DNA of 64,000 nt from Rhodopseudomonas sp. AAP120 (lineage in GTDB: Bacteria > Pseudomonadota > Alphaproteobacteria > Rhizobiales > Xanthobacteraceae): NCBI RefSeq assembly GCF_001295845.1, contig NZ_LJIC01000124.1:1-64000 (forward strand), in the 5' to 3' direction. This document shows, one piece after another, positions 9,871 through 61,739 of the stretch; within the stretch, counting starts at the first letter, position 1, and every line of letters begins with the position of its first letter. The notes beneath the pieces were generated by a model, which did not search any database, was not told where the DNA came from, and saw nothing but the letters and a program-made list of their open reading frames with translations. A program made the translations under genes and the position numbers.

Positions 9871-9912
9871 GAAACGAACTCATAAAACAAACCAAACGCA
9901 GGGAGATCTCCC

Positions 9913-32700: not shown

Positions 32701-34392
32701 TCAGGTAAGCGCCTGCTGGTGCACGCCCATGACGGCACGCCCCGAGGGATCTGCCATTGCGGCGAAGCTGGCGTCCCAGGCGATTGCCGCCGGCGATGAG
32801 CAGGCGATCGACTTGCCGCCCGGCACCGTTTCGGCCGCGGCCTGCGTCGGAAAGAAAAGCTGGAACAGATGGCGGTAGTAATACGCCTCCTTGGTTTGCG
32901 GCGGATTGTGCCCGAACCGCTTGTCGGCTGCGGCCATGACGCGGTCGCTGACCTGCGCTTCGGCGTGCGCCTTCAAGCCGTCGATCCAGCCGTATCCGAC
33001 ACCATCACTGAACTGCTCTTTCTGACGCCACAGGATCGAATCCGGCAGATAGCCTTCGAAAGCTTCGCGCAGGAGCGCCTTCTCGATCCGTCGCGCGCCG
33101 TCCGCGCCCTGGCCGATCATCTTGTGCTTGGCATCGATGCGCATCGCCACATCGAGAAACTCGCGGTCGAGGAAAGGCACCCGTGGCTCTACGCCCCACG
33201 CCATCATCGATTTGTTGGCGCGCAGGCAATCGTAATTGTTGAGCGCGTCGAGCTTTCGCACGAGTTCCTCATGAAATTCGCGGGCATTCGGCGCCTTGTG
33301 GAAATACAAGTAGCCGCCGAAGATCTCGTCGCTGCCTTCGCCCGACAGCACCATCTTCACGCCCATCGCCTTGATCCGGCGCGCCAGCAGAAACATCGGC
33401 GTGGAGGCGCGGATCGTCGTGACGTCGTAGGTTTCGACGTGGCGTATGACGTCCGGCAGTGCGTCCAGGCCTTCTTCGAAAGTGTATTCGAAGCCGTGGT
33501 GGACCGTGTCCAGCGCCGCCGCCGCGATCGCCGCCGCGGCGAGGTCTGGCGAGCCTTTCAGGCCGATGGCGAAAGAATGCAGCCGCGGCCACCACGCTTC
33601 GCTCCGATCACCATCTTCGATGCGGCGGCGTGCGTAGCGCGCGGCCACGGCGGCGACCAGCGATGAATCGAGCCCGCCGGACAGCAGCACGCCGTAGGGT
33701 ACATCGGTCATCAGCTGGCGGTGCACCGCACGTTCGAACGCCTCGCGCAGCGCCACGCGGTCGGCCGCCACGTTCTCGACCGACTTGTAGTCGCGCCAGG
33801 GGCGCACGTAGTAGCGGGTGAGGGTGTCGGTTCCGCTGTCGTACCAATGCCCCGGCGGGAACTGCGCGGCGTCGGCGCAGATATCGACCAAGGCTTTCAA
33901 CTCCGAGGCCACCACCAGGCGGCCATCCTTGTCGTGGCCCCAATACAGCGGCACTACGCCGATCGGATCGCGCGCGATCAGCACGCGCTGCCGACGGGAA
34001 TCCCATAGCGCGAACGCGAAGATTCCATTGATGCGGTTGAGGAAGGAGGCCGGGGTGTCTTCGCGATACAGCGCGTTGATCACCTCGCAGTCCGAACCGG
34101 TCTGGAAGGCGTAAGGCTGGATCAGCTCCGCCTTCAGTTCGAGATGATTGTAGATTTCGCCATTGACCGCCAGCGCCAGGTTGGAGTCTTCGGACAACAG
34201 CGGCTGCGCGCCGCCGGCCGGGTCGACGATCGACAGGCGCTCATGGACCATGATCGCGCCGGCGTCGACGTACACGCCGCTCCAGTCCGGTCCTCGGTGG
34301 CGCTGGCGCCGGGAAAGATCGACGCAGGTTCGGCGCAGGGCCGAATGATCGTCATCGTCCTGCAGGCCGAAAATGCCGAAAATCGAGCACAT
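32701..34392 (-). CDS. asnB: Asparagine synthetase B, glutamine-hydrolysing
   Basis: 563 residues, closely similar by eye to E. coli AsnB across the whole length. Cys2 (MCSIFGIFG) is the glutaminase nucleophile; RHRGPDWSG, HERLSIVD and NGEIYNH follow. The synthetase domain has the PP-loop LLSGGLDSS, ETYDVTTIRASTPM and VLSGEGSDEIFGGYLYFHKAPN. It makes Asn from Asp, Gln and ATP. It is the last gene of a five-gene operon, 41 bases after the dehydrogenase-like gene. The upstream adenylation domain has an Asn-type pocket, so this copy probably supplies that pathway. Confidence 0.95.
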   Translation of the reverse strand: MCSIFGIFGLQDDDDHSALRRTCVDLSRRQRHRGPDWSGVYVDAGAIMVHERLSIVDPAGGAQPLLSEDSNLALAVNGEIYNHLELKAELIQPYAFQTGSDCEVINALYREDTPASFLNRINGIFAFALWDSRRQRVLIARDPIGVVPLYWGHDKDGRLVVASELKALVDICADAAQFPPGHWYDSGTDTLTRYYVRPWRDYKSVENVAADRVALREAFERAVHRQLMTDVPYGVLLSGGLDSSLVAAVAARYARRRIEDGDRSEAWWPRLHSFAIGLKGSPDLAAAAIAAAALDTVHHGFEYTFEEGLDALPDVIRHVETYDVTTIRASTPMFLLARRIKAMGVKMVLSGEGSDEIFGGYLYFHKAPNAREFHEELVRKLDALNNYDCLRANKSMMAWGVEPRVPFLDREFLDVAMRIDAKHKMIGQGADGARRIEKALLREAFEGYLPDSILWRQKEQFSDGVGYGWIDGLKAHAEAQVSDRVMAAADKRFGHNPPQTKEAYYYRHLFQLFFPTQAAAETVPGGKSIACSSPAAIAWDASFAAMADPSGRAVMGVHQQALT

Positions 34393-34433
34393 GACAGAGA
34401 CTCCGGACGCGAAAGGAATCGGGCTTCACGAAC

Positions 34434-35606
34434 TCACATCAGCGATGCGATCACCTCCAGCATCACTTCCGTCGCGCCGCCGGCAATGGACAGCATGCGC
34501 GCGTCGCGTGCGATCCGCTCGATCGCACTCTCGCGCATGACACCCATGGCGCCGTGAAACTGCACGCACGCATAAGCGACCTCGTTGACCAACTCGCCGC
34601 TTAGGGCCTTGAGCATCGAGATCTCTCGCAGGCAGTCGTCATCCCCTGCCATGCGCCAGGCCGTGGCATAGAGGAACTCGCGCGCCGCTTCGACTTTCGC
34701 AGACAGCATCGCGAGACGATGGCGGATCGCCTGCATGTCCCATAGAGCGCCACCAAAGGCCCGGCGGGCCTTCAACCAAACCAGAGTGGTATCGAGCGCG
34801 GCACCGGCCATTCCGAGAGCCATCGCGGCAAGCACGAGGCGCTCGTTCTGCAGGTTGCGCATCATGGCGTAGAAGCCCTGGCCTTCGACGCCGAGCATGT
34901 TCTCTGCGGGGATACGGCAATTATCGAAGACCAGTTCCGCGGTATCGGAGGAACGCCAGCCGTGCTTGTCGAGTTCGCGGGCGACGCTGAGGCCCGGCGT
35001 CTCCTTCTCGACCAGAAACATCGAGATGCCGTTGGCTCCTGCCGAGGCATTGGTCGTCGCCGCGACGCAGTAGAGATCCGCGTGAACGCCGTTCGTGATG
35101 TAGAGTTTGGCTCCATCCAGGACGAAGAAGTCGCCGTCCCGGCGCGCGCGCGTGCGGATCGCCTTGATGTCCGACCCGGCGTCCGGCTCCGTGATCGCCA
35201 CCGCGGTAATGACGGCGCCACTGACGATCTGCGGCATCCAGCGGTCGCGTTGGGCTCGGCTGCCGTCGTGGAAGACGTAGCCGGAAGCCATATCGGTCTG
35301 GACCAGGATCGTATCGGCGACGCCGCCATAGGTGGAGCGACCGAGCTCTTCGGCGAACACGACCGATGCCACCGCGTCCATCTCGGCGCCGCCATATTCG
35401 GCCGGGTAGCGGATGCCGAGGAAGCCGAGTTCGCCCATGCGGCGCAGGATTGGACGCGGAACAAAGCCGTCCTGCTCCCAGCGGTGTGCAGAGGGCTTGA
35501 TCACCTCTTCGACGAAGCGGCGAACCTGATCGCGCAAGGCCTCGTACTCGCCCGCCGCCCAAGGCAGGCCGGGTCCTTGCGGCGATACCCAAGCCTTGTC
35601 CATCAT
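34434..35606 (-). CDS. Acyl-CoA-dehydrogenase-like flavoprotein in an NRPS operon
   Basis: 390 residues; ATG at 35606 (a second ATG is adjacent) after AGAGGGGACA. FAD/substrate signatures ITAVAITEPDAGSDIKAIRTRA and VQFHGAMGVMRESAIERIARD are present. The usual C-terminal base (YEGT) is replaced by IAGGATEVM. A Glu lies instead in NERLVLAAMALGMAG, the position of the base in isovaleryl- and long-chain acyl-CoA dehydrogenases. In this operon the likely substrate is an aminoacyl group on the carrier protein, as with prolyl-carrier oxidases (PltE/RedW type), giving an alpha,beta-unsaturated or imine product. A free acyl-CoA substrate remains possible. Confidence 0.88.
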   Translation of the reverse strand: MMDKAWVSPQGPGLPWAAGEYEALRDQVRRFVEEVIKPSAHRWEQDGFVPRPILRRMGELGFLGIRYPAEYGGAEMDAVASVVFAEELGRSTYGGVADTILVQTDMASGYVFHDGSRAQRDRWMPQIVSGAVITAVAITEPDAGSDIKAIRTRARRDGDFFVLDGAKLYITNGVHADLYCVAATTNASAGANGISMFLVEKETPGLSVARELDKHGWRSSDTAELVFDNCRIPAENMLGVEGQGFYAMMRNLQNERLVLAAMALGMAGAALDTTLVWLKARRAFGGALWDMQAIRHRLAMLSAKVEAAREFLYATAWRMAGDDDCLREISMLKALSGELVNEVAYACVQFHGAMGVMRESAIERIARDARMLSIAGGATEVMLEVIASLM

Positions 35607-35676
35607 TGTCCCCTCTGCAGTGTGTTGAGCACAGAAGTTGTCGTGCCGGGTTCGATTCTCGTGGGCTGTCGGTGAG

Positions 35677-37632
35677 CTAGAGCTCGATCTCCTCCAGTGG
35701 TTCGTTCGACGATGAAGCGGCTGCCGAGGCTGCTGCCCAGCGTAGCGCATCGATCAATTCCGCAAGTCCGGCCAGCGTCGGGCGCTCGAACAGATTGCGA
35801 AGCTGCACGTCGACACCGAAGGCCTTTCGCATCTGGGCCATTGCCCGGGTCACCAGAAGCGACGCCCCGCCGAGTTCGAAGAAGTTGTCGCGGCGTCCGA
35901 TCTGCTGGGCCTTGAGGAGGCCGCCCCACAGCGCGGCGAGCTTTTTCTCGGTCTCGGTCTCCGGGGCCTCGAAATCCTCAGCAGGCTCGTTGTTTTCCGC
36001 AGTCGGTTGCGGAAGCGAAGCGCGGTCGATTTTGCCGTTCGACGTCAGCGGCATTCGTTTGAGGCGGACGTAGTGCGTCGGGATCATCGAGGGCAGCAGT
36101 TCCTCGGCGAGGTGGGCGCGCAGGTCGGCAACGGTCACGGGCGCCGGAGAGACGTAGTAGGCGACGAGGCGTTCGACACCGTCTTCACTCGTCACGGCGA
36201 CGGCGCAGTCCTCGACCTGCGGGTAGCTGAGAAGTCGCGCCTCGATTTCACCCAGCTCGATCCGCGTGCCTCCGATCTTCACCTGATGGTCGGCGCGGCC
36301 GAGAAAATCCAGGCGGCCGTCCGCATTCCAGCGGGCGAGATCGCCGGTCGCATACAGCCGCAGGGTCGAAACCCCGTCTCGCGGATCGGCTGCCGTGCAG
36401 AAGCGTTCCTCGGTCAAGTCGGGGCGGTGGAAGTAACCTCTCGCCAGACCGTCGCCGGCGATGAAGAGCTGCCCGATGACGCCGGGAGATGTGGGGCGAT
36501 GCATCTCGTCGAGGACGTAGATGCCGGTATTGGCGGCCGGAACGCCGATCGGGACCGATCCTGATCGGTCTTCGTCGATGTCGAAGCGATGGATCATGCA
36601 GCCCACCGTCGCTTCGGTCGGTCCGTACTCATTGTAGAGTTCGACCGGATGCGGAATGGCTTTGGTGATGTCGCGGGCCAGTTCGGACTTGAAGTCTTCG
36701 CCACCCACGATGAATTTGCGCAGCCTCGTGGTTGCGGGCGCGCTGTTGCGGATCATCCCGAGATGCGCGGGCGTCAGTTTGATGATGTCGACGGCATTGT
36801 CCTCGACGACCTTGAGCACGACCATGTTCTGCACTCCCGGATCGCCGAGATAGACCACGATGCGGCCGCCGGTGACGAGGGGCGTGAACAGCGTCGTGAC
36901 GGTGAGGTCGAACGCGAGGGAGGAGAAGAGGGGCCAGGCGAGACGTTCGCCGGAGCTATACATCCGGGCGGCCCACCAGATGTAGTTCACCAGACTCCGG
37001 TGTTCGATCACGACGCCCTTGGGCGTGCCGGTGGAGCCGGAGGTGAAGATGATGTAGGCGGGCTCCCCTGGAGCGGCGGCAGACGCCCGGGATGAATCCG
37101 GCTGATTGGAAATCGAGCCGAAATCGGCATCGAGTACAAAGATGTCGGCGAGCTCCGGCGGAATGACGGATCGAAGGCGCGCCTGGGTGATCGTGACCGG
37201 CATCGTCCCGTCGGTCCCGTCGCGAATGTCCTTCAGGATCGTCGCAATTCTGCCCTTCGGCGTCGCCGCGTCCAACGGTACATACGCTGCGCCCGCTTTT
37301 AGAATGCCGAGAATCGCCACGACGACTTCGATCGAGTGCTCCATGAACAGCACCACGATGTGCCCCGGCCCAACACCCGTCGAAGCCAAATAGGCAGTCA
37401 GCTGGTTCGAGCGGGCGTCGAGCTCGCGATACGTCAGCGTGGCGGCGCCGAAGCGGATCGCTTCGTCGTCGGGATGATGCGCCACCTGATCGCGGAACAG
37501 ATCGATGATCGTTTTGTCCGAGGGGAAAGGCGTTGCCGTGGCGTTGTGGTCGATGACCAGCGCCCGATGATCGGTGTCGTTCAGCTGCGCAAGTGCCACT
37601 CCGTCCAGCGCGATCGGTACGACTTTGTTCAT
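35677..37632 (-). CDS. Stand-alone NRPS module: adenylation domain plus peptidyl carrier protein, predicted Asn-activating
   Basis: 651 residues with no condensation domain. The A domain (about 40-545) has IIFTSGSTGTPKGV, YNEYGPTEATVG, YATGDLARWNADGRLDFLGR and Lys534 in SNGKIDR. Pocket positions aligned by hand to GrsA are Asp242, Leu243, Thr246, Lys285, Ile308, Gly310, Glu335, Val343, Gly344, Lys534: DLTKIGEVGK, one change from the known Asn code DLTKLGEVGK. The carrier domain (about 555-632) has Ser591 in DNFFELGGASLL for the phosphopantetheine arm. The tail ends in an acidic NEPLEEIEL peptide, a possible docking strand. AAGAGGAG precedes the ATG. Confidence 0.92.
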   Translation of the reverse strand: MNKVVPIALDGVALAQLNDTDHRALVIDHNATATPFPSDKTIIDLFRDQVAHHPDDEAIRFGAATLTYRELDARSNQLTAYLASTGVGPGHIVVLFMEHSIEVVVAILGILKAGAAYVPLDAATPKGRIATILKDIRDGTDGTMPVTITQARLRSVIPPELADIFVLDADFGSISNQPDSSRASAAAPGEPAYIIFTSGSTGTPKGVVIEHRSLVNYIWWAARMYSSGERLAWPLFSSLAFDLTVTTLFTPLVTGGRIVVYLGDPGVQNMVVLKVVEDNAVDIIKLTPAHLGMIRNSAPATTRLRKFIVGGEDFKSELARDITKAIPHPVELYNEYGPTEATVGCMIHRFDIDEDRSGSVPIGVPAANTGIYVLDEMHRPTSPGVIGQLFIAGDGLARGYFHRPDLTEERFCTAADPRDGVSTLRLYATGDLARWNADGRLDFLGRADHQVKIGGTRIELGEIEARLLSYPQVEDCAVAVTSEDGVERLVAYYVSPAPVTVADLRAHLAEELLPSMIPTHYVRLKRMPLTSNGKIDRASLPQPTAENNEPAEDFEAPETETEKKLAALWGGLLKAQQIGRRDNFFELGGASLLVTRAMAQMRKAFGVDVQLRNLFERPTLAGLAELIDALRWAAASAAASSSNEPLEEIEL

Positions 37633-37668
37633 GCGGCACGCTCCTCTTGCGACACTCGAAGCATCAGA

Positions 37669-38712
37669 TCATCCGGGGCATTCGGCCTTCTGCATCGCTT
37701 GGCGATAAATTGCCGCGATGGCGGGTGCATCCGGCTCCTCCAGCATGCGGAAATCGTCGCAGCCGGGGGGCCCGAAGTAGAACTCGGCATGGGGGATGAC
37801 TTGGAGCCATCGGTGCGGTGCTGCGCCCGACCTGAGCCAGGCCCTGTTCGGAAGGAAAATGCAGACGCGCCGCGCGTAGCGAACTGGCGTGTACCGGCGC
37901 AACGCCGTGATCGCTGTGGATTTGAGTCGTTCCCGGCTCGCCAGCACCGGGTCCACCGCAACGGGCCGTTCGGTCTTGAGAAGCCGGGTGAGCACGGATT
38001 GAACGTGCCCGCGCAGGCTGTCGTAGCCATATTGCAGACGGGCGCCGACGGTAGGCAGCTTGTCGATCTCCCGCGTGATCGTATCGAGGCTTCCCCGGGC
38101 GAGGAAATACAGCCGGCGCGACAATTCCCTGTAGGTGGTCGGATGCAGAGGGCCGAACAGCGCGACGCACGGGATATCTGCTCCGCGTTCGGCCAGGATC
38201 TTCGCCAGTTCCAGAGCGGTCGCCCCGCCTGAGCAGTAGCCGGCAATGACGTAAGGGCCGACGGGCTGATAGTCGACGATCTGTCGGGCGAAATACTCTG
38301 CGATGTCTTCGACGCGGTCCATCGGCTCGCTTTGTCCGTCGAAGCCCGGTGGCTGGAGCGCATAGAACGGCTGATCGTCGCCGAGGTGCCTCGACAGATC
38401 CAGGAACGAGAACGGCGCTCCGATATGCCCCGGTACGGCATAGATCGGCGTTCGCGTTCCGCGAGGCTGCAGGGGAATCACGGCCGGCTGTTGCGCGGCC
38501 GCCGCGGAGGCCATGTTCAAAAACGCGATGATGTCGCCCTTGCGGTCCCGCAACTGGTCGCGAAACTCCGCCGTCAACGCGCCGACCGGCGCGCTGCACC
38601 GCAGTCGATCGCGCTCGACAGAGATCCGGATATCCTTGGCCGCGAGCACTGCGAGCAGATCGGGGATCTGCAGCACGTCGTCGATAAAGGGCCTACCAAT
38701 CCCTTGCTTCAT
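37669..38712 (-). CDS. Thioesterase with N-terminal TubC-type docking domain
   Basis: 347 residues from the ATG at 38712 (GAGGAA upstream; a GTG at 38739 is also in frame). Residues ~16-65 match the TubC_N beta-hairpin docking pattern: LLAVLAAKDIRISVERDRLRCSAP, then ALTAEFRDQLRDRKGDIIAFL. The rest (about 85-340) is an alpha/beta-hydrolase thioesterase with nucleophile Ser161 in AGYCSGGATALELA. It should release, or proofread, the product on the carrier protein. A docking domain on a lone thioesterase is unusual; its partner may be the acidic tail of the adenylation-carrier protein encoded next. Confidence 0.85.
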   Translation of the reverse strand: MKQGIGRPFIDDVLQIPDLLAVLAAKDIRISVERDRLRCSAPVGALTAEFRDQLRDRKGDIIAFLNMASAAAAQQPAVIPLQPRGTRTPIYAVPGHIGAPFSFLDLSRHLGDDQPFYALQPPGFDGQSEPMDRVEDIAEYFARQIVDYQPVGPYVIAGYCSGGATALELAKILAERGADIPCVALFGPLHPTTYRELSRRLYFLARGSLDTITREIDKLPTVGARLQYGYDSLRGHVQSVLTRLLKTERPVAVDPVLASRERLKSTAITALRRYTPVRYARRVCIFLPNRAWLRSGAAPHRWLQVIPHAEFYFGPPGCDDFRMLEEPDAPAIAAIYRQAMQKAECPG

Positions 38713-38769
38713 GGGTTCCTCACAGCCCCCCCGGTGCACCGTACGGCCGTTGCTGCCTCGGCGGATACT

Positions 38770-39405
38770 TCAATTCCGGACTACCACTGTGCCGACATAT
38801 CCGGGCTTGGGTACGAAGCCCGTGACGGTCCAATCCTCTTCATTCCAGAGGGTGGGCTGCCCGAGGCCGCATCCCAGCGCCTTCGACACCGCCTCCAGAC
38901 GAGTCCAGCGCTCGAGGAAGTCCTTCGGCCGGCGCTCCGGCTCGAGCGCCGCGTAGGACTGGTATTCGGACGGTGAAAGACAAAGGGAGGCGATCTGGTC
39001 CGCTTCCGGCACGGGCAGAATGACCTCGATGTCGACTCCGACGTCCCGGTTGTCGGCGAGGGCAATGACCGCGACGTCTGCCGACCGCGAGATGCTGAAG
39101 CGGAGATCGCGGCCGCGCATGCGTTGGGAGAGGCGGGGCTTCCCCAATTCTTCGTATTCGAACTCGACGTCGGAGGGGCAAACGCCCAGCCTGGCGGCAA
39201 GAACGTGACGTAGATGCCCGCGTGTCGCGACAAAGCGGCGTTGGTCCTGCCTTAGCCTCAGCCTGAGGGCGCGAAGGCCTTCTTCTTCGTTGAGACAGAG
39301 GCCGATCTGGTTGACGGTGTCTTGGTCCGCGTCGAGCATGAACGCGAGGACCTGCAAACCGTCGGCCTCGAAAACCAAACTATCAGTTCTGAAATCCGGT
39401 GTCAT
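38770..39405 (-). CDS. 4'-phosphopantetheinyl transferase, Sfp type
   Basis: 211 residues. Mg-binding Asp125 and Glu127 lie in DVGVDIEV; the second motif is RWTRLEAVSKALG (Trp167, Glu171, Lys175); FVATRGHLRHVLA matches the N-lobe pattern. The usual Lys before that Glu is Leu170 here. It moves phosphopantetheine from CoA to carrier Ser residues, most likely Ser591 of the adenylation-carrier protein. It is the first gene of the five-gene operon and lies 57 bases before the thioesterase gene. Confidence 0.88.
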   Translation of the reverse strand: MTPDFRTDSLVFEADGLQVLAFMLDADQDTVNQIGLCLNEEEGLRALRLRLRQDQRRFVATRGHLRHVLAARLGVCPSDVEFEYEELGKPRLSQRMRGRDLRFSISRSADVAVIALADNRDVGVDIEVILPVPEADQIASLCLSPSEYQSYAALEPERRPKDFLERWTRLEAVSKALGCGLGQPTLWNEEDWTVTGFVPKPGYVGTVVVRN

Positions 39406-39542: not shown

Positions 39543-40475
39543 TTATCCGGCGGAGCGGCGTTCCAGACTGTGATGTCGGGACGCCTGACCTTCAATTTCA
39601 ACGAACACGACTTCTGGCGGCATGCCGAACCTGACCGGCCACCAGGAGCAGCCGAGGCCGCCCGACACGATCAGGTGCCGCTCGCCCTCGAAGAAGTGGC
39701 CGTAGCAATAAGCCATGCTGAGCTCCGATGGCGCGAACAGCGCACTGCCGAGCACGCGCACCTGGCCGCCATGTGTATGGCCGGCCAGCGTGAGCGAAAC
39801 CCTCTCCGGGACCCGTGGAAAGATATCCGGCTCGTGAACCAGCAGGATCACCGGGGCATCCGGGGGCACAGCCGCCAGCGTGGCTTCGAGATCGTCGACG
39901 CCGCGTTTGACGGTACGTCCCGATGAATAACCAAGAAGCGCCTCCTGTTCGGCCAGTCCGGCAATCCAAAACTCATGACCGTCCTTTGTGAGACGGGCAT
40001 TTTCGTTTTCAAGCACGGCGATGCCGGCCTTCTCCAGCGCCAGCCGAGCCGCAATCGGCCCGCGTCCACGCAGCTGTGCGGTCTTGTCCGCCCACCAATC
40101 GTGATTGCCGAGGATCGCGTAGACGCCGAGAGGTGCGCGTAATCCTCCGAGCGTGGTGGCCCAGTCGCGGTCGGGCACGATTGCGGTGATCTTCTTGTGG
40201 CCGGCCACGTAGTCGCCGAGCAGGACGATCACATCGGCGCCGAGTCGATTGGTGAGTTGAACGATCTGTCCAATCCGCTCGATATCCATCCATGGCTCGC
40301 AAGCGTGAATGTCGGCAATTACAGCGACCTTCAGTTTCAGGCCTGCGGGCCAGGATGCAGGCCTGACGCGATAGCGCGTAACATTCGTCTGCAGCAGCGG
40401 CTCGATTCCGACGCCGTAGGCACCTGTGGCGGTCGCCAACAGCGGCGCCACCAGAAGGCTGCGCCTGCTCAGCAT
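39543..40475 (-). CDS. Metallophosphoesterase, YaeI/YkoQ-like
   Basis: 310 residues. All calcineurin-like motifs are present in order: VIADIHACEPW, VLLGDYVAGHK, LGNHDWWADK, LLVHEPD and LAGHTHGGQV. The N terminus (LLVAPLLATATGAYGVG) is hydrophobic with Arg-Arg before it, so it may be membrane-anchored or exported. Relatives cleave phosphodiester or pyrophosphate bonds in lipids such as UDP-diacylglucosamine. It is separated from the Asn operon by 137 bases and may not belong to it. Confidence 0.9.
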   Translation of the reverse strand: MLSRRSLLVAPLLATATGAYGVGIEPLLQTNVTRYRVRPASWPAGLKLKVAVIADIHACEPWMDIERIGQIVQLTNRLGADVIVLLGDYVAGHKKITAIVPDRDWATTLGGLRAPLGVYAILGNHDWWADKTAQLRGRGPIAARLALEKAGIAVLENENARLTKDGHEFWIAGLAEQEALLGYSSGRTVKRGVDDLEATLAAVPPDAPVILLVHEPDIFPRVPERVSLTLAGHTHGGQVRVLGSALFAPSELSMAYCYGHFFEGERHLIVSGGLGCSWWPVRFGMPPEVVFVEIEGQASRHHSLERRSAG

Positions 40476-40737: not shown

Positions 40738-42165
40738 TTAGCGCTCTCGGAGCGTCTCCTGGCGGTACCGCGCCAGAGGTGACAACAGGTAGCTGATGAT
40801 CTTGCGCGAGCCGGTCTTGATCTCGACCGTCACCGCCATGCCAGGCGCGAGCTTCACCAATTTCTCGTCGATCTGCATGTCGGTGCGGGCGAGCGCGACC
40901 CGCGCGATGTATTCCAGATCCTGCCCCCGCTGCTCGATCGCGGCCGAGCCGCTACGGGTGGCGCGGTCGAAGGGGCCGGCGCGCGGCACGTCGCGTGTGA
41001 CGGCGTCGGAGGAAACGCTGACCACTTCGCCGCGCAGCAAGCCGTAACGCGTGAAGTTGAACGTATCGACCTTGACCTCGGCCTCCTGTCCGGGATGGAC
41101 GAACCCGATGTCGCGGTTTGCGACCGTCGCCTCGATCTCCAGCTTGCTCTCGCTCGGCACCACCACGGCAAGCGTCTGGGCCGGGGTCACCACGCCGCCG
41201 ACGGTGTGGACGGCAAGTTGCTGCACCGTGCCGTCGACCGGCGATGTCAGCCGCTGCAGCCGCGTACGCTGTTCGGCCTTGATCGTATCCTGAGCCAGCT
41301 CGTTGGCCTTCTGCTCGGCCTTGGTGAGTGCGTCGTAAATGTTACGGCGATATTCCACCGCGGTCTTTTCACGCGTCTCCTTCAGCAGCGAGATCGCCGC
41401 GTCGATCTCCGTCAGCCGGCTTGTGAGCACCAGGATGTCCTGCTGCAGCCCGACCAGCTCCTGCATCTGGGTCAGATAGACCACCCGCGAGGCCAGCCCC
41501 TTGTCGAGCAGGCCTTTGTGGATATCGATCTTTTCCTGCAACACCGGAATCGTCGCCTGAACCTTGGCGACGCTGGCCGCAATCGTTGCGCGCTCGGCTT
41601 CCTTCTGGGCCTGCTGCCGCCCGACCTCGGCGAGTTTCGAGGTCAATTCGGCGCGCTGGTTGATCAGGAACTGGCGCTGCATCTCGATCTGATCGGGCTG
41701 GGCGCCCGGTGGCGGCCTGAAGCTCGCGAGCGGGTCTTCCTGCAGGGCCGCCCGCAGCCGTGCGACTTCCAGGCCGGCAGCCATCAAGTCGCCCCGCTGG
41801 CGCTCGTGGTCGGCAGCAAGCATCGTCGGGTCGAGTTCGATCAGAACGTCACCGGCCTTCACCACGTGACCGTCTCGGACGTGGATGGCGCGCACGACGC
41901 CGGTCTCGAAAGGTTGGATGAGCTTGGTCCGGCCGCCCGGCACGATCTTGCCGGGGGCTGTCGCCACGATATCGACGCTACCGAGCGATGCCCATGCGAG
42001 TGCGAAGACGAATACCGCGATGATGCTTGCCGCAATCGCCCGCGCGGCCGGCGAGGGCGGGCGCTCGGTGATCTCCAGTGCCGCCGGCAGGAAAGCGATC
42101 TCCTGTTCGCGGCGCCGCAGCTCCGCCCTGCGGAACGGAACGACATTCTGACTAGCGGACCTCAT
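40738..42165 (-). CDS. Type I secretion membrane-fusion protein (HlyD family)
   Basis: 475 residues with ATG at 42165 overlapping the ATPase gene by 14 bases. One membrane helix (AASIIAVFVFALAWASLGS), a lipoyl-like half (GKIVPGGRTKLIQPFETGVVRAIHVRDGHVVKAGDVLIELD), a long coiled coil (about 115-300), the second lipoyl half (RLTSPVDGTVQQLAVHTVGGVV) and the C-terminal HlyD signature region (LAPGMAVTVEIKTGSRKIISYLLSPL). It links the inner-membrane ATPase to a TolC-like outer-membrane channel, which is not encoded in this window. Confidence 0.94.
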   Translation of the reverse strand: MRSASQNVVPFRRAELRRREQEIAFLPAALEITERPPSPAARAIAASIIAVFVFALAWASLGSVDIVATAPGKIVPGGRTKLIQPFETGVVRAIHVRDGHVVKAGDVLIELDPTMLAADHERQRGDLMAAGLEVARLRAALQEDPLASFRPPPGAQPDQIEMQRQFLINQRAELTSKLAEVGRQQAQKEAERATIAASVAKVQATIPVLQEKIDIHKGLLDKGLASRVVYLTQMQELVGLQQDILVLTSRLTEIDAAISLLKETREKTAVEYRRNIYDALTKAEQKANELAQDTIKAEQRTRLQRLTSPVDGTVQQLAVHTVGGVVTPAQTLAVVVPSESKLEIEATVANRDIGFVHPGQEAEVKVDTFNFTRYGLLRGEVVSVSSDAVTRDVPRAGPFDRATRSGSAAIEQRGQDLEYIARVALARTDMQIDEKLVKLAPGMAVTVEIKTGSRKIISYLLSPLARYRQETLRER

Positions 42166-44839
42166 GGAGACCTGCCTGCAGGTAATGCAGCTTCGCGTAG
42201 CGGCCATTGCTCTGGATCAGGTCTTCGTGGGCGCCGTCCTCGACGATCCGGCCGCGCTCGATGGTGATGATGCGGTCGGCGTGGCGCACGGTCGATAGCC
42301 GGTGCGCCACCACGAAGACGGTTCGCCCCTCGGCGATCAACGCCATGTTCCGTTGGATCGCGCGCTCGCTTTCATAGTCGAGTGCGCTGGTGGCTTCGTC
42401 GAAGATCAGAATTCGTGGATCTGTGATCAGGGCCCGGGCGATGGCGACGCGCTGACGCTGTCCTCCGGAAAGGCTGGAGCCCCGCTCGCCGACCACCGTG
42501 TCGTAACCCTCGGGAAGTTCGAGGATGAAGTCGTGAGCTCCGGCGAGCTTCGCCGCCGCGATCACCTTTTCCATCGGCAGGGTCGGATCCGACAGCGCGA
42601 TGTTCTCGCGGATCGTGCTGTTGAACAGGACGTTCTCCTGCAAAACCACTCCCGTCTGGCGCCGCAGCCAGGACAGGTCGACCATCGCAAGATCGACACC
42701 GTCGACCAGCACGCGGCCGCTCTCCGGGACGTAGAGTCGCTGGATCAGCTTGCCGATCGTACTCTTCCCGGATCCCGACGAGCCGACGATACCGACGATC
42801 TGACCGGGCTCGACGGTGAACGACACGTCGTGAAGCACCTGGGGGCCGTCGACGCGGTAGCGGAAATGGACATGTTCGAAAGTCACCTGTCCGCGGATCG
42901 CCGGCAGTGCGGCGCGTCCGGGATGAAAGCCGGGCTCGGGCAAAGTGTTGAGGATGTCGCCGAGCCGATCGACCGACAGCCGGGCCTGGTGAAAATCCTG
43001 CCACATCTGGGCCAGCCGCAGGACCGGGGCACTGACGCGCCCGGCCAGCATGTTGAAGGCGACGAGTTCGCCGACGCTCAGATCCCCATCGATGACCAGC
43101 CGGGCGCCGAAATACAGCGTCGCGGCGGTGACGAGCTTATTGATCGTCTGCACCGCCTCGCTCGCTACGTTGTTCAAGCTGAGCACCCGGAAGCTCGCAG
43201 TCACATAAGCGGCGAGCTGCTCCTCCCATTTTCGCTGCATCTGCGGCTCGACGGCCATTGCTTTCAGGGTTTCGACCCCGGTGACGTTCTCGACCAGGAA
43301 CGCCTGGTTCTCGGCCCCGCGGGAAAATTTCTCGTCGAGTCGTTTGCGGAACAGCGGTGTCGCGATCACCGAGATGGCGATGTAGATCGGCAGCGACGCG
43401 ATCACCAGCCAGGTCAATAGCGGCGCGTAGTAGAACATCACCGCAAGGAAGACGGATGTGAAGAGCAGGTCGATCCCGAGCGTCAGTGCCGAACTTGTCA
43501 GGAAGTTACGGATGTTCTCCAGCTCCCGCACGCGCGCGACCGAATCGCCGACCCGCCGCGCCTGGAAGTAAGCGACCGGGAGAGCCAATAAGTGACGAAA
43601 CAGTCGCGCCCCGAGCTCGACGTCGATCCGATTGGTGGTGTGCGAGAACAGGTAGGTCCGCAGCGTTCCGAGAACCGCCTCGAACAGGGTCAGCCCGATC
43701 AGCCCGATGATCAGGACGTCGAGCGTGCTGATACTACGGTGGACCAGCACCTTGTCGATGACGACCTGGAAGAACAGCGGCGAGACGAGCGCGAAGATCT
43801 GCAGGAAGAACGAGGCCAGCAGGACTTCGCCGAGAAGATATCGGTACTTGTGGACGGCGCCCAGGAACCAAGAGATGTCGAAGCGGCGGGAGAGGTCGGA
43901 TAGCGACGCGCGTCGCGCCATCAGGACGAGGTCGCCGTCCCAAACCGCCTCCAGTTCGACCTGCGTCATCGTCAGCGGTTGGGCGATGGTGGGACGCTGC
44001 ACCAGGATCTTGTCGTCCGAGACTTTGCCGAGGATCAGGAAGCCGCCGTCGCGAAGTACTGCGATGCCGGGCAGGGGAGTGGCGGCTAATCGGGCCCAAT
44101 TGGTCTTCAGCACCCGCGCCTTCAATCCGAAATTGATGGCGCAACGTAGCATATCGGCGACGCCGACCTGACCGGTGCCCAGCTGGTGCCGGATCTGGAC
44201 CGGTTCTGCTGCGATGCCGTGACATCGCAGCAGCGTCACGAGAGCCCGCAAGCCGGCCTCATCGGTATCCGCCGCGCGCTGAACGGTCTCTGATGCGGCA
44301 TGGCGATGCGAGCGCAGGGCCATCCCGCGCCAACGCGCGATGATGCCGGGCACAGATCGCAGCCACGCGGCCACGCTATGCCAGCGCTCGATGATCTGGA
44401 GAGCGGCCTTCGCGTAAAGGTCGGAAAGCCTGAGCATCAGGCGCTCGCCGAACTCCGGAAGTCCAGCCGATACCACGTCGCCGCTCCGGATTTTGTCCAG
44501 CTCGTCGCGTGTCATCCGCTCCGGCCGCGCCGCGGTCGGCCGCAGCACCAGCGCCTCGTCGCCGTCGATCTTGCCGACGAGCAGGAAGCCGCCGTCGCGC
44601 AGGGCGGCGATCAGGGGCATCTGCATGGTAGATAGCCGCTTCCAGCCGGCCTTACACGAGCGCGTCGCCAGCCCCAACGTGGCGGCACAGCGGAGCATGT
44701 CGCGGAGCCCGACGGTGTCGGTGTCGCAGCGCCTGCGAATATCTTCGATCGAGATCTCTCGGCCCTGGGAACGCAGAAACAGCCAGAGGGTCAGCAGCCC
44801 CGTGTCTGGTGGAACGTCGTCTTCGGTCAGCATCGCCAT
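42152..44839 (-). CDS. Type I secretion ABC transporter with two tandem C39-like domains
   Basis: 895 residues, about 170-180 longer than HlyB. Two related C39-peptidase-like domains lie in tandem (about 10-135 and 185-310); compare DMLRCAATLGLATRSCKAGWKRL with DMLRCAINFGLKARVLKTNWARL, and ALRDGGFLLVGKI with VLRDGGFLILGKV. Neither has the catalytic Cys (TGLLTLWLFL, AGLRALVTLL), so both are substrate-binding CLDs as in HlyB, not proteases. Then a six-helix membrane domain (about 325-610) and an ATPase with GSSGSGKST, LSGGQRQR and LIFDEATSALD. It probably exports the GH16 enzyme encoded 119 bases upstream. Confidence 0.94.
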   Translation of the reverse strand: MAMLTEDDVPPDTGLLTLWLFLRSQGREISIEDIRRRCDTDTVGLRDMLRCAATLGLATRSCKAGWKRLSTMQMPLIAALRDGGFLLVGKIDGDEALVLRPTAARPERMTRDELDKIRSGDVVSAGLPEFGERLMLRLSDLYAKAALQIIERWHSVAAWLRSVPGIIARWRGMALRSHRHAASETVQRAADTDEAGLRALVTLLRCHGIAAEPVQIRHQLGTGQVGVADMLRCAINFGLKARVLKTNWARLAATPLPGIAVLRDGGFLILGKVSDDKILVQRPTIAQPLTMTQVELEAVWDGDLVLMARRASLSDLSRRFDISWFLGAVHKYRYLLGEVLLASFFLQIFALVSPLFFQVVIDKVLVHRSISTLDVLIIGLIGLTLFEAVLGTLRTYLFSHTTNRIDVELGARLFRHLLALPVAYFQARRVGDSVARVRELENIRNFLTSSALTLGIDLLFTSVFLAVMFYYAPLLTWLVIASLPIYIAISVIATPLFRKRLDEKFSRGAENQAFLVENVTGVETLKAMAVEPQMQRKWEEQLAAYVTASFRVLSLNNVASEAVQTINKLVTAATLYFGARLVIDGDLSVGELVAFNMLAGRVSAPVLRLAQMWQDFHQARLSVDRLGDILNTLPEPGFHPGRAALPAIRGQVTFEHVHFRYRVDGPQVLHDVSFTVEPGQIVGIVGSSGSGKSTIGKLIQRLYVPESGRVLVDGVDLAMVDLSWLRRQTGVVLQENVLFNSTIRENIALSDPTLPMEKVIAAAKLAGAHDFILELPEGYDTVVGERGSSLSGGQRQRVAIARALITDPRILIFDEATSALDYESERAIQRNMALIAEGRTVFVVAHRLSTVRHADRIITIERGRIVEDGAHEDLIQSNGRYAKLHYLQAGLHEVR

Positions 44840-44958
44840 TGCGATGAGTCCTTTGTGCTCAAGGAGTCAGATCGCGTTCCTATCCGCAGGACGGCCGCCT
44901 TGCGGCCGGCGGGCGAACGTTCCGAGGCCGAGGGCCCCGGAACGCAGTCATCGTCAGG

Positions 44959-46764
44959 CTAGCCGTGCGGACGGGTCAGAATCGATTGATTCAGCCAATG
45001 TCCGACGTTCGAACTGGTCGACGAAGCGAGCGCGCCGAAGTCCGGCCTGCTCTGCAGCCCTCCCGCCAACGCCTGACTCAGCAAGGCGAAGCTCTGGTCA
45101 TGGCTTTGACCGCCGCTGCTGGAAGGCGGAGACCAGCCGCCGGCCGCAACTGGCGGATCCACGACCGTGATCGTCTGGACCGGCGAGGTCGCCGTCGTGC
45201 CCGTAACCGGATCCCTGCCGGTCGCGGTCACCGACAGCGTCGCCGACGACGAGCCCGTGCCGCGATAACTGGATTTCAGCGTCAGACCACTTTCGACTTC
45301 GGCCGCGCTCAGAGTGATGTTGCTGCCTCGGTGCACGTGCCCGAGCCCGTCGGTGATCGTCTCGTAGTGCGGCAATCCCGTGATAGTCACGGACACGACG
45401 TCGTTCTTGTCGGCCGTGGAAACATCGATCCCCAGGTCGATCGTGCCACCTGGTTTGACCGACAGGGTGTTGTCGGCGACGGCGAGGAGGGGCTTGGTCG
45501 GCCCCGATGTCTGAGGCGGCTGGACGACGGGAGGAGTCGCGGGTGACGTATCCACCGACAGCCCGGCAAAGGTCTTCACCGCGCCCGCAAGATTGGCGGC
45601 GAGGCCGCCGGCATCCTTGATGCTTGCGCCATTGGCGAGGCCCACCCCGGTGATCGCGAGCGCCGACGTGCTGCGGTCGGTGGCCGCGACCGTGGTGGAG
45701 AACACCAGTTTGTCGGTCCCGGATCCGCTGACATAGGTGGCGACGCTGCCGTCGTTGAGGCGCAGGGTCGGCTTGCCGGAGACCGTCACAGCCTCGTCGA
45801 AAGCGAGCGTCAGGGCGATCTTGTCTCCGACATGTTCTACGCCGGTGCCCGGCAGAGCCGTGACGGCGGATACGCTCGGTGCCACGTTCACCGGTGTCGT
45901 TGGAGTGTTTGGGGTGTTCGGCGTCGTCCCGGCGGTGACATTGCTGCCCTTGACCGTGTGGCCGCTGCCGGGCTTCTGGTAGAGCTGCACGCTGTCGACC
46001 AGCATGTGGGTGGTCGCTGGCGTCGAACTATCGACCGTCGAATGCCAGCCGGCGGCCTTCGAGTTGGCCCATTGGCTGTCCAATATGAGCTCCATCGGCT
46101 CTTTTGGGATCGGCAGTTGGGCGCTCGTGACTTGCGCCATCTGCTTGCCGTCGAGATACCAAGTGATCGATTTCCCGGGCTGCCAATCGATGGCGTAGGT
46201 GTGAAAGTCGGCCGTCAGGTCGACCCCGGTGTCGATCACGCCGCCGAGGTCGCCGCTCGGCGTGTGCAGGTGCCACTGGAACGCCTGATTAGGCGGGCCC
46301 TTGCCGGTATAGCCGCCTTCCTGGATGTCGATTTCGAAATTATCGCCGGCCGATGAGCCGCTCCCTGGCATGAGCCAGATGCCGGGCCAGGCGCCGTTTC
46401 CGGATGGCTGTTTCATGCTGACCTGGAGCAGGCCGCCGGTGAATTCGAAATTGCCGTAGCTGCTGACCACGCCCGACGTCATCGGATAGGTCATCATGGT
46501 GCCCTGGTTCATGCCGGCGACCTGGGTCTTGCTGGATGTGATGTCGAGCACGCCATCGTGCACCGAGACTTGGCCCGGCATGTCGAATTCGGCCTCGAAT
46601 TGGCCGCCCGGACCGCTACCGCCGTTATGTGAATTCCAGGGCGAGCCGTTCGCCGCCTTGCTGGTGATGTATTTGTGCCATGCGGCATCAAGCGTGTTGC
46701 CGTCGAAGCCTTCCTGGTAGACGAGGTTGTCCGCCGAGTACCCAGCCGGTGTTGATAAAGCCAT
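44959..46764 (-). CDS. GH16 glycanase with Ig-like modules, probable type I secretion substrate
   Basis: 601 residues from the ATG at 46764; an ATG at 46863 and a TTG at 46899 are also in frame. The GH16 domain holds the catalytic EIDIQE (ExDxxE, residues ~144-149) within GIWLMPGSG...DNFEID; this family cuts beta-1,3/1,4 glucans or galactans such as rhizobial exopolysaccharide. A Thr/Pro/Asn linker is followed by two beta-rich modules (VSAVTALPGTGVEHVGDKIALTL; TIDLGIDVSTADKNDV) and a Ser-rich C-terminal tail. There is no signal peptide and no RTX nonapeptide. First in the operon with the exporter, it resembles ExsH/PlyA systems that trim exopolysaccharide. Confidence 0.88.
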   Translation of the reverse strand: MALSTPAGYSADNLVYQEGFDGNTLDAAWHKYITSKAANGSPWNSHNGGSGPGGQFEAEFDMPGQVSVHDGVLDITSSKTQVAGMNQGTMMTYPMTSGVVSSYGNFEFTGGLLQVSMKQPSGNGAWPGIWLMPGSGSSAGDNFEIDIQEGGYTGKGPPNQAFQWHLHTPSGDLGGVIDTGVDLTADFHTYAIDWQPGKSITWYLDGKQMAQVTSAQLPIPKEPMELILDSQWANSKAAGWHSTVDSSTPATTHMLVDSVQLYQKPGSGHTVKGSNVTAGTTPNTPNTPTTPVNVAPSVSAVTALPGTGVEHVGDKIALTLAFDEAVTVSGKPTLRLNDGSVATYVSGSGTDKLVFSTTVAATDRSTSALAITGVGLANGASIKDAGGLAANLAGAVKTFAGLSVDTSPATPPVVQPPQTSGPTKPLLAVADNTLSVKPGGTIDLGIDVSTADKNDVVSVTITGLPHYETITDGLGHVHRGSNITLSAAEVESGLTLKSSYRGTGSSSATLSVTATGRDPVTGTTATSPVQTITVVDPPVAAGGWSPPSSSGGQSHDQSFALLSQALAGGLQSRPDFGALASSTSSNVGHWLNQSILTRPHG

Positions 46765-47709
46765 CGTGCCAGACCCTGTTGATATTGCAGCGTCTTCATC
46801 AGCAGCCTTGCGGTCGCGTCTGAAGTTTGTGCCGCGGTCGCTCGCCCCCGAGCCCGAGCCCATCGCCTCCGAGTGGCTAAGATCGGAGTATGGCGACAAC
46901 GGGTTGCGATTGGGGTGCCTGGGTGCGAAATCGTAACGGTTGTAAGGCGGTTAGTTGGCGAAGTCTGGGCGCGCCAAAAGATGCTACCAATTTCAATGAT
47001 GTATCGTAGTGTGAGTCGTAGACTATCGGCGGACTGGTATTACTACTTAAGACGATGGGATGGTTTTGAAATCAGTCGAGATTCGCCTTTCTTGCACAGG
47101 CAAGGGCGAGTTTGCGCAGCCAGCCACGAACGTGATCGGAATTCGTGTCTTAGACCCCATCTGTTCGTGGTGGATTCGATGTGCTGAACTCGTCATCAGT
47201 ACAGTCGCGGGATCCAAGGCCAGCATAAGGTTTGGTCGAATGCCGTCCGTGGGGACGTGTCCAGGGGAAAGTAGTAGGAATTTCTGCCGTACTGGTCGCG
47301 CAAAGAATCTCGATAGCGACGCAGTAAGCGGCATTTCTAGGATGGCGGCCCCAACTAACCGTTGAACATTGTCGAGCTCATGCCTGAATGGTACGCAAAT
47401 TCCAGGCCAGACACTACGCGTTTGGCGCCGCAACTAATGACAGGCCTTGCGCTCCGTAAGGAACGTCGATGCCCTAGCGCGAACTGATGTGTCTCGAGGG
47501 GCGTGTCCGTTACGGGACCATCGGTGCTTGCCGACGATAAACTAAGGATTCGTAACGCCGGGGAGATCGGCTAGCCCGGCCGAGAGGAGCACCACGTGTC
47601 AGAGCTCCCCGGGCTTAGCCGCCTGACGCCGCCCGCTCATCGCGACACTGTCAGCCGATTACCCTCTCTGTAAACACTGCATGGAAATCTCTGAAACGCC
47701 GAGGCAGAA
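46765..47709. other. Long intergenic region at the island edge
   Basis: No convincing gene in about 900 bases. Base composition shifts from the GC-rich core to a mixed one. CCGGGGAG (47558-47565) and CTCCCCGG (47605-47612) form an 8-bp inverted repeat, with nested CGGCTAGCCCGG and CCGGGCTTAGCCG nearly complementary; this may be a structured RNA end or a remnant of a mobile element. Short open frames here lack codon structure. Confidence 0.4.
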
Positions 47710-52409: not shown

Positions 52410-52526
52410 CTAACCTTGCGGGCACGCCGGTCTGTGGACCGGTCTTTACATTGAATTCATGGCGCCTCTAGCATCGGTCTGATGCCTTGTTGCTGTATTG
52501 TTGTAAAGCGGAGCCCCGAAAACGCT

Positions 52527-53654
52527 ATGTCGACCTTGATTAAGCGCGGGAAAAATTGGACCGCTACTGCGCGCTTGCCAGACACTTTTCAGGGGCCGGC
52601 AGCCTCGAAATCGATCAGTCAAACGTTCGCAAAGAAGGATGCTGCAAAGCTCTGGCTGAGTTCGACCGAGACGGCCATGAAGCTCGGCAACTGGCGGGAT
52701 CCTCGGCTCGAACCCAAAGCCTATGGGCCGCTTGGGTGGCCTGAAAAGCCCTTTGCAGAGGCGCTGGACGCCTATCGGAGTAAGGTTACGCCTGAGAAGA
52801 AGGGGGCGTCGCAGGAATCCGCAATGCTTCAGATGTTGGGCCGGGAGGACTTCGCCAAAAAGCGCATCCGGGATCTGACCGTAGCCGACTTCGTCGACTT
52901 CCGGGACGCCCGCAACGAGGCTGCGAAGTCGCCATCCACGATCAGGAATAATCTCAATACCATCTCGGCCGTCTACGAGTGGCTGATCCACGAAAAGTCA
53001 GTCGACATCGCCAATCCGATTGCCTCTCTTCGTAAGCGCCGACGAGGCGTGCCCCAGCCCACGGGGCACCGTGAACGGCGGCTCTTCGAAGGCGAGGAAG
53101 AGGCAATTGCGAAGGCCATTGAGGGGCTTTCGGTTGACCCCACCCGTCGGCAGTGGCGCGCACTCTTTCCGCTGCTCCTCGACACTGGAATGCGGCTTGG
53201 AGAGGCAGTCTCAATTGAATGCGCCTGGATCCGACGGGAGTACGGATTTGTCCAAATTCCCGACTCGAAGAACGGCAGCGCGCGGCACGTTGCGCTTTCG
53301 GATCGAGCCTACGCCGGTCTGCTCGAATTGACGGACGGGGAGCCTGCCGACAGCAAGGTGTTCCGCTTCACGGCCTGGGTCGCCAAAGACGCCTGGCGGA
53401 ATGAGATCAGGGTCAGGGCGGGGTGTCAGGACTTGAGGATTCACGACCTACGGCACGAGGCCTTGTCGAGGATGGCGGCGAGGGGAGCCGACCTGAAGAC
53501 GCTGATGCGGCAGAGCGGCCATAAAACCGTGGCCGTGCTGATGAAGTATCTGAACCCCACACCTGCCGAACAAAGGGCGAGGCTGTTTCCGGACGCCGAT
53601 CCACAAGCTGCGGTACTTGAAGGGCGAACGCATGCGAGGAGTGGACGATCCTAG
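52527..53654 (+). CDS. Tyrosine recombinase (phage/island integrase)
   Basis: 375 residues from the ATG at 52527. A SAM-like core-binding domain (about 70-160) precedes the catalytic domain with Arg in LLLDTGMRLGEAV, Lys likely in PDSKNGSARHV, HDLRHEALSR (HxxR) and the C-terminal GHKTVAVLMKYLN supplying His and Tyr. It integrates or excises a mobile island by site-specific recombination. It stands between the broken hipA and the defence genes, in the same direction as the latter. No tRNA gene or att repeat was found beside it. Confidence 0.92.
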   Translation: MSTLIKRGKNWTATARLPDTFQGPAASKSISQTFAKKDAAKLWLSSTETAMKLGNWRDPRLEPKAYGPLGWPEKPFAEALDAYRSKVTPEKKGASQESAMLQMLGREDFAKKRIRDLTVADFVDFRDARNEAAKSPSTIRNNLNTISAVYEWLIHEKSVDIANPIASLRKRRRGVPQPTGHRERRLFEGEEEAIAKAIEGLSVDPTRRQWRALFPLLLDTGMRLGEAVSIECAWIRREYGFVQIPDSKNGSARHVALSDRAYAGLLELTDGEPADSKVFRFTAWVAKDAWRNEIRVRAGCQDLRIHDLRHEALSRMAARGADLKTLMRQSGHKTVAVLMKYLNPTPAEQRARLFPDADPQAAVLEGRTHARSGRS

Positions 53655-53994
53655 TTTATGAAGCCCGAAAAAATAGCTTCGTAGGAGGATGATCGTCTTC
53701 ACCATGTTGACAGTACGTCCATTCTGGGTGCCACCTGAACTTTCGTAAAGAATTTCACCCCTATTGATCTGACCACGCGAAGCGACGGTATCCAAGACAA
53801 CGGCGTTCGATGTTCGGACTCTCGCAAGTGATCTTGGAGCCCCATGTCCGACGGTCTCGGGATCGATACCGCGCAGAGTCCTAGGCGTGCGTCTAGCATC
53901 GGGAAGCCGAGCTAGACCGTCGAGCTGGCAGATGTCGTGCCGTTAGGAGACCAGATGATCACGACGACATTTTGGACCTTCTGGAGCTAAGGCA
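53655..53994. other. Intergenic region upstream of the defence operon
   Basis: About 340 bases with no credible gene. It is more AT-rich than its neighbours and should contain the promoter of the operon at 53995. GGAG lies eight bases before the TTG start. Confidence 0.45.
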
Positions 53995-60160: not shown

Positions 60161-60205
60161 TACAAATCCTCGGACAATAGATGCCGTACTCCGAGCCTAC
60201 GTATC

Positions 60206-60823
60206 GTGCCCGAAACCGCGTCCCAGCGCCACATCGCCCATTCTGTTCTGAAAGCGCGCGGTATCGCGCGTCTCGCCGAACTGCGCGCCGCGGGAGTAAC
60301 CGCAGCAACTATGAGTCGCATGGAACGAGATGGAGAGGTGCTGCGGCTTGCGCGTGGGCTTTACCAACTCCCTGATGCGCCGCTCGATGCCCACCATAGT
60401 CTGGCCGAGGCAGCGAAACGGGTGCCCAAGGGTGTGGTCTGCCTCGTCTCGGCCCTCGCGTTTCATCAACTTACCGATCAACTCCCAAGGCAGGTGTGGA
60501 TCGCCATCGGCCAAAAGGATTGGGCTCCCAAGGGCGATGGGGCGCCAGTTCGGCTCGTGCGCTTCACGGATCGCCTCCTTACGGAAGGTGTCGAATCCCA
60601 CACCGTCGAAGGGGTGCCCGTAAAGATTTTTGGGGTCGCCAAGACGGTCGCCGACTGCTTCCGGTATCGCAACAAGATCGGCCTGTCGGTGGCGATCGAG
60701 GGCCTCCAGGAGGCGCTGCGTCAACGCAAGACAACCCCTGGCGAAATCGTCAGGCAAGCCGAGCGAGGAGCGATCGCGACGGTCATTCGACCCTATCTCG
60801 AGGCGCTGACCGCCAATGGCTAA
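60206..60823 (+). CDS. AbiEi-family antitoxin
   Basis: 205 residues from a GTG start. An N-terminal winged helix (ARLAELRAAGVTAATMSRMERDGEVLRLARGLYQL) is followed by the AbiEi C-terminal domain (VCLVSALAFHQLTDQLPRQVW, VKIFGVAKTVADCFRYRNKIG). Type IV antitoxins of this kind repress their own promoter and counter the nucleotidyltransferase toxin. It overlaps that gene by 8 bases. Confidence 0.88.
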   Translation: MPETASQRHIAHSVLKARGIARLAELRAAGVTAATMSRMERDGEVLRLARGLYQLPDAPLDAHHSLAEAAKRVPKGVVCLVSALAFHQLTDQLPRQVWIAIGQKDWAPKGDGAPVRLVRFTDRLLTEGVESHTVEGVPVKIFGVAKTVADCFRYRNKIGLSVAIEGLQEALRQRKTTPGEIVRQAERGAIATVIRPYLEALTANG

Positions 60824-61700: not shown

Positions 61701-61739
61701 GCTAGGTATCTCTTTGGAGATACCTGAAGAGGGGGCGTC

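Follow-up and report, generated by a model that had tools for sequence, protein, structure and literature searches.

Gene content of the locus

The window analysed here, a 64,000-nt stretch of DNA from Rhodopseudomonas sp. AAP120, carries on its minus strand five genes arranged head to tail, which we consider as a possible pathway of the nonribosomal peptide synthetase (NRPS) kind: a 4′-phosphopantetheinyl transferase of the Sfp-like superfamily (PPTase, 38770–39405; Pfam ACPS, 6.5e-14), a TubC_N domain fused to a thioesterase (TubC-TE, 37669–38712; Pfam TubC_N 2.8e-15, Thioesterase 2.8e-17), an adenylation (A) domain followed by a peptidyl carrier protein and a C-terminal tail (A-PCP, 35677–37632), a protein of the acyl-CoA-dehydrogenase fold (ACAD, 34434–35606; Pfam Acyl-CoA_dh N, M and 1) and an asparagine synthase B (AsnB, 32701–34392; Asn_synthase plus a glutamine amidotransferase part). 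The gaps between them, in this order, are 57, 36, 70 and 41 bases. An earlier note on this DNA, made from the sequence alone, had described five such genes with gaps of 36–70 bases, and the coordinates of the open reading frames (ORFs) and the domain assignments with Pfam and NCBIfam bear it out; the TE and ACAD starts are chosen ATG codons inside longer ORFs, and of the note's “dehydrogenase-like flavoprotein” the dehydrogenase part holds, as an ACAD fold by Pfam. All five genes are open, with their key residues conserved. A scan for promoters and terminators was uninformative, with no sigma-70-like sites and 10 terminator-like sites vs 5.3 expected.

The pocket of the A domain is DLTKIGEVGK when the A5 motif is read without gaps. 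An alignment that was gapped after position 330 gave cysteine at 331, the ninth pocket residue, while the ungapped reading from GPTE gives glycine, and the pocket that the earlier note had read by hand is confirmed on this basis. It is identical in 19/19 readable relatives (see below), in copies with and without the insert described later. We take DLTKIGEVGK to be one residue off an asparagine code; judged by these residues, the pocket is Asn-like. The only Pfam domains of the A-PCP in the window are AMP-binding, AMP-binding_C and PP-binding, with no nested oxidation (Ox) domain. Its best NCBIfam match, the solanimycin protein SolG, was rejected as an identity at 434.8 of 2200 bits; SolG is predicted to insert serine in the available part of its description (PMC10204066).

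A rare but conserved four-gene cassette

One scan of GTDB species genomes, made with six peptide patterns from a single protein and thus apt to miss distant relatives, returned 25 loci. Twenty-one are close relatives (69–79% identity) in five genera, Bradyrhizobium, Mesorhizobium, Tardiphaga, Nitrobacter and Microvirga; the other four (L042–L045) are distant Bacillota NRPS modules, whose A domains (37–41%) stand without the cassette and which were not counted among the relatives, L042 and L045 being used as the outgroup of the tree. PPTase, TubC-TE, A-PCP and ACAD lie in one order on one strand in 20/21 relatives, which rules out chance adjacency; in the twenty-first (L046) the contig ends inside the A-PCP, and the PPTase is found upstream of the TE in all 21. 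The synteny comparison upholds the grouping of A-PCP, ACAD and TE made in the earlier note, and the conserved unit is these four genes, with AsnB optional. Some rows were set aside: the counts for pocket, tail and tree are without L033, one of the 20, whose A-PCP is frameshifted, and L046, owing to its contig end, is left out of those and of the TE and ACAD counts. The ACAD of L032 was missed by the gene caller and so stands outside the ACAD residue count, although tblastn shows it, and a paralogue of the ACAD in the window (11113–12240) fell into the ACAD alignment and was not counted. The A-PCP of L033 (B. tropiciagri, 8001–9964) is split over two frames, as a pseudogene or through a sequencing error.

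The cassette is rare. Among 397 genomes sampled from the order, the window's own is the only one to have it at E ≤ 1e-180. In a family sample it is found in 3 of 248 genomes, where the other two carriers (G630 and G589) look, from coordinates and frame length, like the metagenome-assembled genomes (MAGs) of Tardiphaga (L027) and Nitrobacter (L030). None of 15 genus mates has it at E ≤ 1e-80, and the plasmids of PLSDB gave no match at E ≤ 1e-150. In the open-access literature nothing was found on the present gene set in rhizobia.

AsnB is linked but optional

The AsnB of the window scores 859.8 bits against NF006949 (asparagine synthase B, cut-off 499), and its ORF begins MCSIFG, with a cysteine after the start methionine that presumably has a role in this enzyme. 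Directly behind the ACAD and co-directional with it, AsnB is found in one relative only, the Tardiphaga MAG (91%). An AsnB of the E. coli type is present at E ≤ 1e-60 in 9/21 carrier genomes, these being the Tardiphaga MAG and eight Bradyrhizobium (57%); in seven of the nine (L022, L025, L027, L028, L029, L034 and L046) it lies on the contig of the cassette, at most about 14 kb from the A-PCP, and in L024 and L033 on a different contig. Of these, the AsnB of L061 (from the L025 genome) scores 827 bits, that of L022 838 and that of L027 850.5, against the cut-off of 499. AsnB as a fixed fifth member, as the earlier note had it, does not survive these counts; its identity as asparagine synthase B does, with the addition that in the family sample it is restricted to carriers.

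This restriction is seen at E ≤ 1e-100, where 2 of the 248 family genomes have AsnB and both are among the three carriers of the cassette (Fisher p 1e-4, from small numbers and uncorrected for relatedness). A housekeeping AsnB is ruled out by its absence from 15/15 genus mates at the same threshold. A TIGR01536 protein of any type is present in 21/22 carrier genomes; the window genome has one other such protein, which scores 927.4 bits as an N-acetylglutaminylglutamine amidotransferase (cut-off 570.1). Asparaginyl-tRNA synthetase reaches its cut-off in 0/22 carrier genomes vs 7/14 control genomes, and tRNA-dependent amidation can supply Asn-tRNA without free asparagine, so translation in the carriers probably needs no free Asn. 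AsnB is a linked but optional supplier of free asparagine.

The ACAD and a putatively docked thioesterase without the usual histidine

In the ACAD, the window and 19/19 aligned relatives have NERLVL, together with GGAT where other ACADs have YEGT, a pattern that we take to be the isovaleryl-CoA type of catalytic glutamate. We propose that it would desaturate asparagine bound to the carrier (Asn-S-PCP).

The TE has a cysteine at the nucleophile site, in GYCSG, in 21/21 rows. The usual histidine, which in 9f7b precedes the methionine of the C-terminal ML by three residues, is missing in all 21. A histidine stands two residues earlier than this place in L023, L032, L033, L040 and L041 and two residues later in L026, while a further one, in a PGH motif, is invariant; some other histidine may stand near the cysteine in the fold. 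A model of the TE (predicted local distance difference test score, pLDDT, 73.9) matches thioesterases of NRPS and polyketide synthases (PKS), with a best E of 6.5e-12 and a TM-score of about 0.5 over the query.

The TubC_N domain in front of the TE (56.6 bits, cut-off 26) matches the docking domains of TubC (E 0.00085) and AerJ (E 0.033) in the PDB. A candidate partner is the C-terminal tail of the A-PCP, PLEEIEL in the window (35680–35700, minus strand) and P-R-E-E-[IVL]-E-[LIF] in 19/19 readable relatives, which is preceded by a variable linker. In the pairs covered by the available text of PMC9113145, the beta-hairpin docking domain is bound by a motif of fewer than 15 residues, and docking domains of this type occur in front of TE domains as well. 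A TubC_N domain paired with a conserved tail after a variable linker, as in these pairs of hairpin and short linear motif, lends support to docking, and the tail may hold the TE to the carrier in this way.

A nested PP-loop domain in some relatives

Seven of the 20 typed relatives (L034–L039 and L041) have 339–340 residues inside the A domain that resemble a PP-loop amidotransferase, while 13 are, like the window, without them. The place of insertion corresponds to 36193–36207 on the minus strand of the window (A-PCP residues about 476–480), coordinates derived by hand from residue numbers: tblastn breaks between query residues 476 and 482, and the alignment maps the insert between what we take to be motifs a8 and a9. 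The insert region of L034 has no Pfam match at E ≤ 0.001. The best family match is the WbuX N-acetyl sugar amidotransferase (TIGR03573), with 143.3 bits against a cut-off of 203.2; LarE scores 19.8 bits, the PDB entry 8wex_A gives E 1.1e-5, and SGGKDS and three CxxC motifs are present in 7/7 inserts. A model of the insert-bearing A-PCP (pLDDT 38.1) was not used.

A tree was built from 20 cassette A-PCPs and the two outgroups with the insert columns removed. Its first branches are the four Microvirga rows, all with the insert, so that presence of the insert would be ancestral and the window a case of loss. The rows without the insert are L026, whose neighbour L035 has it, and a 12-row clade with the window in it (support 81/92), where the window's own place is weak and its end branch long (0.32). 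The simplest count is one early gain and two losses, which would put the window in a lineage of loss. Linkers of 19–22 residues are retained at the site in L022, L027, L030 and L031, of 4–9 in the other insert-less relatives and of none in the window, and in L022 and L030 the linker is similar to the two termini of the insert, as expected of what remains after a deletion. With the same pocket in copies with and without it, the PP-loop domain should act on asparagine or a group derived from it.

Two candidate replacements for the lost domain were considered, and neither found support. For a move of its function to another gene, the 15 genomes in which no insert was seen (the window, the 13 insert-less relatives and the untyped L046) were searched; at E ≤ 1e-15 fourteen of them lack any match to the domain, and the fifteenth (G061) gives a 38% fragment. 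AsnB as a substitute is present in 8/14 insert-less genomes, the window included, vs 1/7 insert-bearing ones (Fisher p 0.16, uncorrected for relatedness). Relatives of the domain were found in 0/398 phylum genomes at E ≤ 1e-35, in a set that lacked a positive control. Reviews, in their accessible parts, name methyltransferase, oxidase, monooxygenase and reductase inserts in A domains, and a word search of these parts gave no PP-loop or amidotransferase; nor was anything found in the open-access literature on a PP-loop in an interrupted A domain.

Genomic neighbourhood

Gene calls in the flanks of the relatives are crude and the flanks annotated in part. Polysaccharide or glycanase genes lie near the cassette in at least 7/22 loci (the window, L022, L026, L027 with GH16 only, L031, L036 and L038), and a protein of the GNAT (Gcn5-related N-acetyltransferase) fold (Acetyltransf_6) is found in the flank of six (the window, L022, L026, L031, L034 and L035). 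In six Bradyrhizobium stretches (L061–L066) AsnB stands between HlyD and a GNAT protein, with a type I secretion system transporter visible beside it in three. The flanks of L023, L032, L033 and L040 have an enoyl-CoA hydratase, and those of L023, L032 and L040 a TRAP transporter; polysaccharide genes were not recognised in L030, L037 and L039, which were annotated in part. Outside the cassette no single gene is common to all loci; a GalE-like epimerase is the most widespread (7 loci).

Just upstream of the operon in the window (40738–46899) are a GH16 glycanase, an ATP-binding cassette (ABC) transporter with a Peptidase_C39 domain and an HlyD, relatives of which adjoin AsnB in several Bradyrhizobium carriers. 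Between these genes and the PPTase, on the strand of the operon, lies a metallophosphoesterase (39543–40475; YaeI/LpxG-like below the cut-offs), of which no relative was found in the flanks of the other loci. A second AMP-ligase occurs near the cassette in L022 (1546–4161, FadD-like), L023 (14617–16152), L034 (222–1952), L025, L028, L029, L032 and L040. The far end of the window (52482–63999) is a defence island, with a phage-type integrase (52482–53654), ZacA, ZacB and ZacC as called by PADLOC (53995–60160), an AbiEii-type protein (60816–61700) and a helicase weakly like DruE (62104–63999, cut by the window end). To the left of the integrase, between 46 and 52 kb, the G+C content falls to 0.48–0.57; a search of the window for tRNA genes found none.

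Discussion

The sequence shows the order of the genes, their domains, the pocket, the conserved residues and the insert, together with its probable loss; from these we infer the chemistry, docking and product that follow. The reading we prefer, at a probability of about 0.5, is that the cassette encodes a split, one-module, indigoidine-like pathway of the NRPS type that uses asparagine. The PPTase would produce the holo carrier; the A domain would activate L-Asn and attach it to the PCP that follows in the same chain; the ACAD would remove two hydrogens (alpha, beta) from Asn-S-PCP; and the TE, docked through TubC_N on the tail of the carrier, would take the acyl group onto its cysteine and lose it to an internal or external nucleophile rather than to water. 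Where present, AsnB would provide the free asparagine. In indigoidine synthesis, as set out in the available part of PMC10989907, the TE cyclises glutamine and the Ox domain dehydrogenates it; asparagine would by the same logic lead to aminosuccinimide or aminomaleimide. Simplest among the candidate products are 3-aminomaleimide, a five-ring imide that would correspond, with Asn, to the half-unit of indigoidine, and a dehydro-asparaginyl group that is transferred. In the older system the PP-loop domain would also have acted on the loaded residue, before the lineage of the window lost it.

Indigoidine synthetases (IdgS, IndC, BpsA; A-Ox-T-TE) are, in the extracts available of PMC10989907 and PMC8949500, like the pathway proposed here in holding one amino-acid amide on one carrier, in flavin-type oxidation and in release by a TE, and they too have an extra domain between a8 and a9, Ox there and PP-loop in seven relatives here. 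Unlike them, the window has an Asn rather than a Gln pocket, no Ox domain and no insert, a separate ACAD, and a separate, presumably docked TE without the usual histidine. The TEs of SulM and ObiF share the cysteine nucleophile, but in the portion consulted of PMC11298585 they keep histidine and aspartate, are fused and close a beta-lactam and a beta-lactone, which are strained rings. The inserts resemble WbuX-type amidotransferases in their motifs and differ in their sub-cut-off score and in being nested in an NRPS A domain. The RedW, PigA and AnaB systems, which desaturate a carrier-bound amino acid, likewise combine an A domain, a carrier and a dehydrogenase of the ACAD fold; the window has an Asn pocket, not a Pro one, and its ACAD, which matches the RedW and PigA models and PDB 4irn, stays far below the cut-offs of both models (for PigA 207.5 of 500 bits).

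Several observations weigh against this asparagine pathway. The ACAD scores 234.7 bits against the prolyl-carrier dehydrogenase model (RedW, NF045652), far below the cut-off of 650, and best with acryloyl-CoA reductase (297.7 of 640), so that its carrier-bound substrate is an assumption. The Cys TEs in print retain their histidine, in the text available of PMC11298585, and a TE without it might be inactive. The earlier note had held homologues without AsnB and in other contexts to speak against its view, and part of this is found, as 12/21 carrier genomes are without an AsnB of the E. coli type; at E ≤ 1e-60 a TIGR01536 protein of any type is absent from the Nitrobacter carrier. The polysaccharide neighbourhood, finally, fits a different role, in which the cassette decorates an exopolysaccharide, loaded and oxidised asparagine being passed to a sugar by the Cys-TE or the GNAT-fold neighbour and AsnB belonging to the polysaccharide locus. 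The glycanase and GNAT genes around the cassette and the position of AsnB between HlyD and GNAT in Bradyrhizobium favour it, but four flanks have the enoyl-CoA hydratase instead, in three partly annotated ones no polysaccharide gene was recognised and no non-cassette gene is shared by all loci, and we regard this role as possible, though on the doubtful side.

The insert of the relatives and its loss, the Cys-type TE lacking the usual histidine, the conserved tail and the polysaccharide surroundings are additions to the earlier note. The dehydro-Asn that the earlier note suggested is a plausible product, and nothing was found in the open-access literature on dehydroasparagine with nonribosomal peptides. 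Its release as the free compound by plain hydrolysis is less likely given the active site of the TE (cysteine, no usual histidine). A route in which the TE or water frees dehydro-Asn, which goes on to 2-oxosuccinamate, is in keeping with the pocket, the ACAD and the ordinary NRPS/PKS fold of the TE; with that active site in all 21 rows, and because a free 2-oxo acid amide would hardly require a carrier, we think it improbable. Decay, by which the window would hold a remnant of the PP-loop-bearing system that makes nothing useful, could account for the long end branch, the lost insert and the frameshift in L033, yet insert-less copies are the majority of the typed relatives and the five genes of the window are open with conserved key residues, making this very unlikely.

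Beyond the asparagine pathway itself, we offer one more detailed and decidedly tentative scheme. The nested PP-loop amidotransferase would, on the model of WbuX enzymes, turn the side-chain amide of carrier-bound asparagine into an amidine, after which desaturation by the ACAD and ring closure by the His-less Cys-TE would give these nodule and soil bacteria a metabolite of the imino-pyrrolinone or aminomaleimide type; the lineage of the window would have dropped the domain, and some lineages would have acquired AsnB next to the cassette. Such an A domain would be an interrupted kind that the reviews, in their accessible parts, do not name.

With four proteins and one module the cassette is small enough for its Asn-derived product to be prepared in vitro and identified. 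If our reading is true, the A-PCP family would offer NRPS engineering a natural example of how an A domain gains and loses a nested domain, and the cassette would give nodule bacteria a further metabolite.

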